64,000 bases of DNA. It comes from Rhodohalobacter mucosus. GTDB lineage: Bacteria > Bacteroidota > Rhodothermia > Balneolales > Balneolaceae. How positions within the stretch are numbered: the stretch's first letter is position 1; the number at the start of each line of letters is the position of its first letter. Of this stretch, positions 13,695-21,533 are shown piece after piece. The translations under genes were made by a program, and so were the position numbers. The notes beneath the pieces are model-generated. The model saw only the letters and a program-made list of their open reading frames with translations, made no database searches and was not told where the DNA came from. The DNA is taken from positions 62,001-126,000 of the forward strand of contig NZ_QGGB01000010.1 in the NCBI RefSeq assembly GCF_003150675.1, read 5' to 3'.

Positions 13695-13730
13695 GGGGGC
13701 AGGGCACAAGGTACAGGGTGCAGGGTGCTC
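13695..13730. repeat. Short heptamer repeat (GGGTGCA type)
   Basis: Four imperfect seven-base units (AGGGCAC, AAGGTAC, AGGGTGC, AGGGTGC) immediately precede a repeat module. The same unit forms the array at the cutC start (32973-33006). Confidence 0.6.
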
Positions 13731-13800
13731 GTCCCCTCTTGAGAGGGGACATGGTTAGATGAACGTGCAAAGCACGATTCAGATAACCAAGGGGTGTGTC
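13731..13800 (+). repeat. Isolated copy of the DUF559-associated hairpin module
   Basis: A 20-base near-palindrome (13731-13750, GTCCCCTC...GAGGGGAC) is followed by a hairpin: outer stem TGGTTA/TAACCA, lower stem GAA/TTC, apical stem CGTGC/GCACG, loop AAA, with one bulged A on the 3' side. The module ends in AGGGGTGTGTC (13790-13800). Order and spacing match the modules around the DUF559 gene 7 kb away, while the stem sequence differs. Confidence 0.75.
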
Positions 13801-13818
13801 TGACAGGCCTTGGCAGAA

Positions 13819-13937
13819 GGCTTCAGGCTTCAGGCTTCAGGCTTCAGGCTTCAGGCTTCAGGCTTCAGGCTTCAGGCTTCAGGCTTCAGGCTTCAGGCTT
13901 CAGGCTTCAGGCTTCAGGCTTCAGGCTTCAGGCTTCA
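13819..13937. repeat. Perfect heptamer array, GGCTTCA x17
   Basis: The 119 bases are exactly 17 uninterrupted copies of GGCTTCA. In every frame this encodes the same short peptide repeat without a stop, which produces spurious open frames. It is not a CRISPR: there are no spacers. Perfect copies imply recent expansion or active correction. Confidence 0.97.
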
Positions 13938-14050
13938 ACGGGCAACTTATGGAAAGTTCTGAAATCATACACCGAATATCTCCAATCGCATATCATTTCC
14001 TCCGTCTCATACAGGGGGAATGCCCCATCGGGATCCCTTCGGGAAATTCC

Positions 14051-20402: not shown

Positions 20403-20435
20403 ATTGGGAAATGCATGAGTGGGGCGAGGAAAAAA

Positions 20436-20505
20436 GTCCCCTCTCGAGAGGGGACAGATTTGAACAAGCAGGCATAGCCTGTCTTGAGAGGATCAGGGGT
20501 GTGTC
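20436..20505 (+). repeat. Hairpin module L-left
   Basis: Perfect 20-base palindrome GTCCCCTCTCGAGAGGGGAC (20436-20455). Hairpin CAAG-CAGGC, loop ATA, GCCTG, bulged T, CTTG (20465-20486). Box AGGGGTGTGTC (20495-20505). It starts 33 bases after the pullulanase stop. Confidence 0.85.
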
Positions 20506-20554
20506 CGGAGCATTGACACGGATTCGGGATGGTGTTTTACTCTCCACCCCCACT

Positions 20555-20622
20555 GACACACCCCTCGCTTAGCAAATCGGACTTCGTCCGTTTGCCCTCG
20601 CATTTCCCCTCTCCAGAGGGAA
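20555..20622 (-). repeat. Hairpin module L-right (inverted)
   Basis: Read on the minus strand: palindrome-like TTCCCTCTGGAGAGGGGAA, then hairpin GCAAA-CGGAC, loop GAA, GTCCG, bulged A, TTTGC (20572-20595), then the AGGGGTGTGTC box (20555-20565). It faces L-left and is the left-hand partner of the direct repeat at 21378-21446. Confidence 0.85.
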
Positions 20623-20650
20623 CTTTAGATGGCCTCGATGAATGCCCGTA

Positions 20651-20740
20651 AACACACCCCTTTCCCGGATGAATCACGCTTCGCATTTTCATACGGGTAT
20701 GTCCCCTCTTGCCGAAGGCATCCCTACGGGGCAAGAGGGG
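20651..20740 (-). repeat. Hairpin module M (inverted, palindrome interrupted)
   Basis: Read on the minus strand: an interrupted palindrome (CCCCTCTTGC and its complement, split by about 15 bases), hairpin ATGAA-AATGC, loop GAA, GCGTG, bulged A, TTCAT (20669-20692), then AGGGGTGTGTT (20651-20661). It ends about 35 bases from the DUF559 stop codon. Confidence 0.7.
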
Positions 20741-20774
20741 GTGGATGGTGGCCTTCGGCGAAGGCGCCACTTAT

Positions 20775-21161
20775 TTACAGCCCCAGCTTTCGTTTCTGCA
20801 ACAATACCTCATGCTCTATCGCACCCAGCACATAATCGATATCCTTCAAGACTTCCTCATTCCAGAAACGGATTACGTTCAGGCCCAGCTCCTGAAGTCT
20901 TCTCTCTCTGGCAATGTCTGCTGCTGCCTGAACCTCCAACAGATGAGAATATCCATACAGCTCAATGACCAGCCACAGCTCGCTGCAGATGAAATCAACA
21001 ATAAACTGATCAACCGGTCGCTGCCGGTGAAAGTCATATCCGTACATCTGTCTCCCTTTCAGATGCTTCCACAGGATGATCTCACTCATGGTGCTGTTGT
21101 TCCGAAGCTCACGGGCCAGCTTTTTCAGCTTTGGATTGTATGATATGATAGGTCTCTTCAT
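20775..21161 (-). CDS. DUF559 domain endonuclease-like protein (Vsr-like fold)
   Basis: A 128-residue protein with the DUF559 pattern: LARELRNNSTMSEIILWKHLKGRQMYGYDFHRQRPVDQFIVDFICSELWLVIELYGYSH, then IARERRLQELGLNVIRFWNEEVLKDIDYVL. The family is related to very-short-patch-repair endonucleases, with a PD-(D/E)xK-type core; the candidate acidic residues are the Asp of VDF and the Glu of VIEL. The frequent ELDG of the family reads ELYG here, so activity is uncertain. The gene has no operon partners. It lies alone in a nest of inverted and direct structured repeats (20436-20740 and 21259-21496), which suggests that the gene and repeats belong together as an element. No cellular role is established for the family as far as known to this reader. 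Confidence 0.85.
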   Translation of the reverse strand: MKRPIISYNPKLKKLARELRNNSTMSEIILWKHLKGRQMYGYDFHRQRPVDQFIVDFICSELWLVIELYGYSHLLEVQAAADIARERRLQELGLNVIRFWNEEVLKDIDYVLGAIEHEVLLQKRKLGL

Positions 21162-21258
21162 GATTAATCAATTGATTTCTCCCCTTTTTAGTAAGAACCC
21201 ATAATTCCGAAATCCTTACAGTATTATCAACAATCAAGAAACGAGGTCAGGTGGAAAA

Positions 21259-21328
21259 GTCCCCTCTTGAGAGGGGACAGATATGAGAAAGCTCGCACAG
21301 CGAGCCTTTCGAGGATCAGGGGTGTGTC
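21259..21328 (+). repeat. Hairpin module R-left
   Basis: Palindrome GTCCCCTCTTGAGAGGGGAC (21259-21278), hairpin GAAAG-CTCGC, loop ACA, GCGAG, bulged C, CTTTC (21287-21310), box AGGGGTGTGTC (21318-21328). Together with R-right it is a direct repeat of L-left/L-right (about 190 bases), so the DUF559 gene is bracketed by two paired units. Confidence 0.85.
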
Positions 21329-21377
21329 CGGGGCGATGATGCGGGTTCGGGATGGTGTTTCACTCTCCACCCCCGCT

Positions 21378-21446
21378 GACACACCCCTCGCTCAGCAAAC
21401 CGGACTTCATCCTTTTGCTTTCGCATTTCCCCTCTCCAGAGGGGAC
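21378..21446 (-). repeat. Hairpin module R-right (inverted)
   Basis: Read on the minus strand: palindrome GTCCCCTCTGGAGAGGGGAA (21427-21446), lower stem GCAAA/TTTGC, a weaker apical stem (AGGAT with GTCCG, one mismatch and one wobble) with loop GAA, then AGGGGTGTGTC (21378-21388). Confidence 0.75.
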
Positions 21447-21496
21447 AGATTCGAACAAGCAGGCAAAGCCTGACTTTGGAGAATCAGGGGTATGTC
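21427..21496 (+). repeat. Hairpin module R2-left, sharing its palindrome with R-right
   Basis: The palindrome at 21427-21446 also starts a rightward module: hairpin CAAG-CAGGC, loop AAA, GCCTG, bulged A, CTTTG (21456-21478), then AGGGGTATGTC (21486-21496). It runs up to the 5' end of the symporter genes, and an in-frame ATG at 21492 falls inside it. Confidence 0.8.
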
Positions 21497-21533
21497 CCCT
21501 TTCACTTTTCCCGGTAATCAGATAGATTCCGCC

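Follow-up and report, generated by a model that had tools for sequence, protein, structure and literature searches.

The locus analysed here raises the question of why a solitary gene for a Vsr-like DUF559 nuclease lies among structured repeat modules, and whether gene and modules together form a mobile system. The window, i.e. the whole 64,000-nucleotide stretch of Rhodohalobacter mucosus DNA that was analysed, encodes a lone DUF559 protein (PF04480, E 6e-31, 107 bits versus a curated cut-off of 20.6), with a pullulanase-type gene on one side and a sodium:solute symporter gene, preceded by a small gene, on the other. Six palindrome-hairpin-GGGGTGTGTC modules surround the DUF559 gene, four of which make up two 192-bp units in direct order (Table 1). 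The earlier note had described the gene as bracketed by two direct units of about 190 bp, each made of two facing modules, with extra modules beyond them; our analysis bears this out, the units being 192 nt each with 86% identity and consisting of modules 1 and 2 and modules 4 and 5, respectively, with modules 3 and 6 as the extra ones. The proposed order of palindrome, bulged hairpin and box likewise holds in every module, with a larger hairpin inside the palindrome of module 3.

Table 1. Positions of the nuclease gene, its leader and the repeat modules in the window.
Feature	Position	Strand	Basis or remark
Module 7: lone copy elsewhere in window	13729..13802	+	covariance model
First 192-bp facing pair (modules 1+2, boxes inward)	20432..20623	.	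unit alignment
Module 1: palindrome, hairpin 2, AGGGGTGTGTC box	20434..20507	+	covariance model, 91 bits
Module 2	20553..20625	-	covariance model, 81.2 bits
Module 3: palindrome enlarged by inserted hairpin; palindrome towards gene	20649..20744	-	41.3 bits
DUF559 Vsr-like nuclease gene	20775..21161	-	PF04480; 128 aa; Tyr at Asp69 position
Gene leader, TGTAAGGA ... GGTTCTTAC	21191..21220	-	common to clade leaders, by eye
Second 192-bp facing pair (modules 4+5, boxes inward)	21255..21446	.	86% identity to first
Module 4: palindrome towards gene	21257..21330	+	covariance model, 87.4 bits
Module 5	21376..21448	-	covariance model, 76 bits
Module 6: palindrome common with module 5	21425..21498	+	covariance model, 84.9 bits

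The window locus has modules but lacks a simple palindrome-box-gene-box-palindrome unit, its DUF559 gene lying outside the facing pairs. The gene belongs to a ten-strong clade within the genus, five members of which have the simple layout (L086 with an altered right palindrome) and five, the window included, longer arrays; palindromes, not boxes, are nearest the gene on both sides in four of the five longer-array loci. A leader of the form TGTAAGGA...GGTTC(A/T)TAC, which may be a promoter, precedes window-clade DUF559 genes at five further loci (L071, L074, L087, L093 and L098), and one of like form precedes the four-helix genes at L246 and L252, described below. The lone module 7 is identical in sequence to the copy at G000:C10:27213-27286. 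Directly after it, the 7-bp unit TTCAGGC is repeated in tandem (window ~13820-13938), and short stretches similar to this array adjoin other single module copies (L008, L012).

Each module comprises a palindrome of ~20 bp, a bulged short-loop hairpin of variable sequence and a AGGGGTGTGTC box. Within the window, nine matches to the box (<=1 mismatch) compare with 0.91 expected and five to the palindrome (<=3 mismatches) with 0.18 expected, as many being reached in 0/100 shuffles in either case. A two-hairpin structure over 30 modules pairs 92.5% of cells, with a covariation score of 0.335 versus 0.128 in shuffled data (0/500 as high) and with both partners altered in seven of the eight hairpin-2 pairs, in an alignment that was fitted to the model and is hence biased towards the two-hairpin fold. 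The genome-wide search with a covariance model that the earlier note had proposed found the modules dispersed: a model built from six window modules and used to score 150 of 708 candidates gave 54 matches at E <= 0.01 in the 3.9-Mb genome, several of them standing as facing pairs and the weakest being partial. A shorter version of the module, of ~56 bp, is clustered at G000:C10:277348-287203 and C8:20216-33213 (L036, L037), each cluster being mainly one-stranded and spread over ~10 kb.

The predicted fold of the window protein (mean pLDDT 91.9) is closest to the Neisseria protein 3hrl (E 8e-8), followed by the catalytic domain of I-Bth0305I, a homing endonuclease of the EDxHD type (E 2.6e-4, a comparison at the level of the fold), and by Vsr (E 0.03); a profile search of solved structures likewise gave 3hrl (E 4e-25) and I-Bth0305I (E 0.001). 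Pfam, fold and solved-structure searches thus all lead to DUF559, 3hrl, I-Bth0305I or Vsr, and the enzyme is not of the HUH type. E27, D56, E67, H73 and D82 are intact, but a Tyr takes the place of the near-invariant Asp69 of the E-x-D-G-x-x-H motif, a position that is Asp in 141 of 143 protein rows and Asn in one. Since it is this Asp that is missing, the window copy makes an unpromising candidate for a functioning nuclease and is probably inactive, and the window locus would be an array of the DUF559-module system whose nuclease probably no longer acts. A role in defence was considered and dropped: PADLOC matched neither the window protein nor L168, and gave partial weak matches for L219 and L118.

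The flanking of DUF559 genes by inverted repeats extends well beyond this locus. The five DUF559 matches in the same genome represent four genes, one of which is split in two; this broken gene is flanked by a perfect 35-bp inverted repeat. The three other DUF559 genes of the genome lie, as read by eye, between facing units that likewise combine a palindrome with a G-box but belong to other sequence types; the window-type covariance model gave no match to these units. For solitary genes generally, the upstream flank of 500 bp was scored against the reverse-complemented downstream flank of equal length, and the threshold was set at 26, the highest score reached by any of 120 random placements in the genomes concerned. 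Of 58 relatives searched, 33 have DUF559, and in the subset of matches fetched 59/70 distinct solitary genes exceeded this threshold (0/120 random placements), with four genes at contig edges and four fused loci with long frames (L066, L067, L069, L073) standing outside the 70. One of the three other DUF559 genes of the window's genome fell below the threshold because its two ends differ. As the random placements are, we infer, mostly coding, ORFs of the same loci served as the control for a named multi-phylum set (80 loci from a scan seeded with the window clade, seven at edges), in which 60/73 DUF559 genes but only 16/312 ORFs exceeded 26 (p 6e-30). The threshold was missed by 11/70 genes of the relatives and 13/73 of the named set.

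Window-like ends, TCCCCTCTTGAGAGGGG-TTAGGGGTGTGT with boxes inward, occur in Aureibaculum (L168), Mucilaginibacter (L206), Pontibacter (L208) and many others; closely similar ends are present in Zixibacteria (L171) and Pelosinus (L207). Eight of ten distant plasmid-borne outgroup genes, from Alphaproteobacteria, Deinococcus and cyanobacteria, also exceeded 26, a threshold taken from the relatives' control and not matched for G+C. Plasmid carriage was considered and set aside, as the 37 DUF559 records found in a plasmid search are all distant (<60% identity) and gave no sign of recent plasmid transfer. In a positive control, five of six Y1_Tnp genes of the genome exceeded 26 too, with other repeats; flanking repeats as such are therefore not peculiar to DUF559. 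Most Y1_Tnp loci of the genome (L046-L051, G000) have their own, different repeats, at L048 as tandem units of ~147 bp, and these form a second repeat system of the same genome. The pairing of DUF559 genes with repeats across many bacterial phyla suggests a widespread, tiny selfish element.

Repeat type tracks nuclease clade. Over 106 loci, protein identity correlates with terminal-repeat similarity (Mantel rho 0.343, 0/500 permutations as high); the correlation is also seen between the relatives' and the named sets (rho 0.209, 1/500 as high) and is weak inside the named set (rho 0.109, 21/500 as high). On a tree of 143 proteins three repeat classes require nine changes versus 36 when shuffled (0/200), with 97/143 rows classed, 43 fitting no pattern, three fitting two and 12 that fit both the W and B patterns scored as W.

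The earlier note had expected module number to follow the presence of a DUF559 gene, and the comparison is suggestive. Among 28 genomes of the genus, window-type (R1) modules number 0-47 (median 17.5) in the ten with a window-clade gene and 0-31 in the 18 without (p 0.0039), in a comparison that scored <=84 candidates per genome, entered L120 of G011, on a very long branch near the window clade, as gene-less, ignored incomplete assemblies and is uncorrected for kinship. R1 modules are present in genomes in which the cognate gene was not found (25 in G019, 31 in G024, 15 in G021 and 13 in G008), and two genomes with a window-clade gene have none (G020) or only three (G010). That note had also considered that module copies might prove unassociated with DUF559 genes; this was looked at, and association is what we found.

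One of the repeat families linked to DUF559 is already on file, as whalefall-1 (RF01762), and the link is new. The window modules score 24.2, 21.3 and 18.9 bits against RF01762, under its gathering score of 37, with module 6 best; at a DUF559 gene of a related genome (L062, G030), matches over that threshold (54.7 and 52.5 bits) lie on each side. RF01762 was found at E <= 0.001 in 38 of 128 genomes of the order, 18 of which have matches that reach the gathering score. Up to 40 copies were scored per genome, and G201 has at least that many; the copies often form facing doublets ~30 bp apart. Among the matches listed, over-threshold copies lie within 700 bp of 9/83 DUF559 matches versus 0.31 expected, a count over the 16 genomes with both DUF559 and over-threshold RF01762 among those matches. 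It takes in G004, G015, G209 and weak DUF559 fragments and leaves out G191, which has no DUF559; the one remaining genome of the 18 with over-threshold RF01762 stands outside the matches listed. A smaller, 13-genome count, without these four genomes and three weak fragments, gives 9/62 versus 0.27 expected. The nine neighbourings are one in each of nine of the 16 genomes, with RF01762 copies flanking the gene left and right in five and lying on one side in four among the matches listed, in which the other seven genomes show no such neighbours.

On a tree of 89 proteins, the 12 RF01762-linked DUF559 rows require two changes versus 11.5 when shuffled (0/500), forming one clade plus a single exception, L328 of G206. 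Within genus g21, the clade gene occurs together with 9-11 RF01762 matches in three genomes (G166, G169, G171), and three more (G167, G170, G172) have neither. In two others a clear clade gene is missing although matches are present, 11 of them in G165 and 10 in G168, implying that modules can persist after the gene is lost or spread ahead of it; the best hit of a partial frame in G165 (L361) is a clade row, at 41% over 73 aa. In G184 nine matches are present and the cognate gene was not found, and G191 and G202 have RF01762 matches with zero DUF559 matches. As far as the accessible part of its description goes, whalefall-1 was rated a certain RNA, not cis-regulatory, and came from whalefall samples only (PMC2864571).

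Element boundaries and site occupancy bear on whether such units move. For two elements from different genomes with 84% identity over the element (L109 and L110), homology spans outer palindrome edge to outer palindrome edge, and the flanks do not align. Homology between elements of Nostoc (L194) and Cyanothece (L212) stops at the palindrome on the 3' side, and that of other pairs stops near the palindrome or, for L071 and L074, at the leader. The site between EngB and UbiA in Mucilaginibacter was followed through 100 genomes, EngB being present in 95; of the 30 loci that were read, 24 have the two genes adjacent. Among these, a DUF559 element is present in 11 species and absent in 13, and in ten of the 13 the gap measures 32-45 bp. 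Mapped on an EngB tree, occupancy requires eight changes of state, with at least five of the changes forced by starred branches. Three elements (L276, L279, L290) have matching termini of 32 bp; by eye no target-site duplication was seen at these three, where empty sites are not near-identical. One species nested among occupied ones (L277) retains half of the left palindrome. As read by eye, the EngB C-terminus in L267, L272 and L276 runs through an element or relic palindrome, giving SPLER-type tails, and, from these sequences, old insertions seem to have become coding at the EngB end. At the same site L284 (G157) carries a different palindromic repeat (CGTCATTGCGAGGAACGAAGCAATCTC...) where congeners carry DUF559 elements.

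A second case is an RND operon matched in 13/28 genomes of the window's genus. Two of its intergenic sites vary in content: they may be empty or be occupied by a DUF559 element, of which there are two types, by a gene-less pair or by some other small gene; in G007 a gene-less pair lies at the flank where G002 has a gene between boxes. At three loci (L246, L247, L252) a small gene or its remnant lies near GTGAAAAGGCAGAAGTGAAAAG-type repeats, at sites where congeners have DUF559 elements; the small gene reads like that of the four-helix 23S rRNA intervening-sequence protein. Some gene-less pairs hold an apparent 3' end of a DUF559 gene. Under a strict pattern, three of six gene-less type-A pairs exceed shuffles, and since one of these three is circular, the deletion-derivative link rests on two cases and on reading by eye.

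We consider it moderately probable that this is a REPIN-like mobile system, one in which a lone Vsr-like DUF559 nuclease is partnered by palindrome-(hairpin)-G-box modules cognate to it and, we infer from sequence comparison, would be the mover of the modules. The nuclease would recognise its cognate module folded as single-stranded or cruciform DNA, in which two facing boxes may pair with a palindrome hairpin on either side, and would cut it at the foot or centre of the palindrome; host repair or replication might then copy the unit or drop it. Gene-bearing units would be autonomous, with gene-less facing pairs and single modules non-autonomous, and the window locus could be a relic of the system or depend on another copy of the nuclease. 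The proposal of the earlier note that a Vsr-like DUF559 protein is analogous, though unrelated, to RAYTs is upheld with respect to the dispersal of the modules, their inverted doublets, the match between clade and repeat type and the occurrence in many phyla, with its further element, spreading by DUF559, being an interpretation of these patterns. To our knowledge, no DUF559 enzyme is known to move DNA on its own.

The main rival to the mobile-system reading is homing into existing modules, in which DUF559 would be a free-standing EDxHD-type nuclease that cuts gene-less pairs, recombination would copy the gene in, and the modules would spread otherwise. I-Bth0305I, the nearest functionally known solved relative, is itself a homing endonuclease; a PADLOC homing-endonuclease model weakly matches L118 (E 3.6e-6); the gene-less pair of G007 and the boxed gene of G002 occupy the same flank in the RND operon; and modules are numerous in some genomes in which the cognate gene is undetected. 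The alternation of occupied and module-free EngB-UbiA sites among congeners, however, asks for insertion of the whole unit, and module type tracks nuclease clade, such that we regard homing as unlikely, albeit deserving of serious consideration. That the modules are REP sequences moved by Y1_Tnp proteins, with DUF559 incidental, is highly improbable: although the genome has nine Y1_Tnp matches, several with flanking repeats of their own, these repeats differ in sequence, and the R1 module occurs at 0/8 Y1_Tnp loci (1.5 kb searched on each side; the ninth, weak match is without a locus), which rules against RAYTs as movers in this genome.

Repeats might alternatively gather around solitary, horizontally acquired genes, with DUF559 a repair-type bystander like VsrA of Caulobacter, where, in the accessible part of the source, a functional link between a DUF559 protein and a solitary cytosine methyltransferase is described (PMC12907096). 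Repeats are indeed common in these genomes and flank Y1_Tnp genes as well; their presence at 16/312 within-locus ORFs versus 60/73 DUF559 genes, the tracking of nuclease clade by repeat class across phyla and the single clade, but for one member, of the RF01762-linked genes make a bystander role improbable. A functional structured RNA, one that might guide or regulate the nuclease, with the covariation reflecting an RNA fold, would accord with the strong covariation of hairpin 2 and with the rating of RF01762 as a certain RNA that is not cis-regulatory, so far as its description is accessible (PMC2864571). Folded single-stranded DNA would covary alike, however, and dispersed copies (at least 40 in G201), facing doublets and neighbouring nuclease genes better fit mobile DNA; an RNA function seems to us a little less probable still than a bystander role.

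Returning to the mobile-system reading, its broadest form, on which we are evenly divided, is that miniature mobile elements driven by a lone Vsr-like DUF559 protein, in the absence of any transposase or recombinase and with each nuclease clade owning a population of structured palindromic modules, are found bacteria-wide and include whalefall-1 and many anonymous CCCC...GGGG repeats of intergenic regions. In the literature searched, mostly outside subscription journals, we found no account of the flanking repeats of DUF559 genes and no publication on REP sequences with a Vsr endonuclease. The results provide a candidate role and partner for DUF559, a large family of unknown function, a candidate origin for the widespread G/C-run palindromes of bacterial genomes and a new meaning for RF01762, an Rfam family filed as non-coding RNA. 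They also make testable the question of whether a solitary Vsr-like nuclease can spread its own repeats without a transposase.

Comparison with known systems reveals both likenesses and differences. REPIN/RAYT systems, according to the accessible parts of their descriptions, consist of short dispersed palindromic repeats in inverted doublets, co-varying with a cognate enzyme gene nearby (PMC3116915, PMC8266576), and their palindromes have a GTAG- or CGTC-type tag at one end (PMC3733652). The modules described here are similarly dispersed, palindromic and arranged as inverted doublets, with an enzyme gene that is near the repeat and co-varies with it, DUF559 in place of RAYT; unlike in REPIN/RAYT systems, the enzyme is Vsr-like rather than a Y1 HUH protein (PF01797), its gene often lies between boxes as part of a compact unit, and a G-box and in many cases another covarying hairpin come on top of the palindrome in each module. 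With whalefall-1 they have in common a palindromic hairpin, GACAGA, a variable hairpin and a UCAGGGuGAGG box, in the same order, and RF01762 members over the gathering score adjoin DUF559 genes; the window modules, in contrast, fall under that score, and Rfam places RF01762 among the non-coding RNAs rather than with mobile DNA. In fold and sequence searches the nuclease comes close to the EDxHD homing endonuclease I-Bth0305I and to Vsr, and it would follow a similar logic of a selfish gene, whereas, judged by context, it lies outside any intron or intein and is bounded by its own inverted structured repeats. Like insertion sequences with their MITE derivatives, the DUF559 units of relatives have a gene between inverted termini, gene-less kin and presence or absence at orthologous sites, but they differ in that a known transposase or recombinase is absent from the unit.
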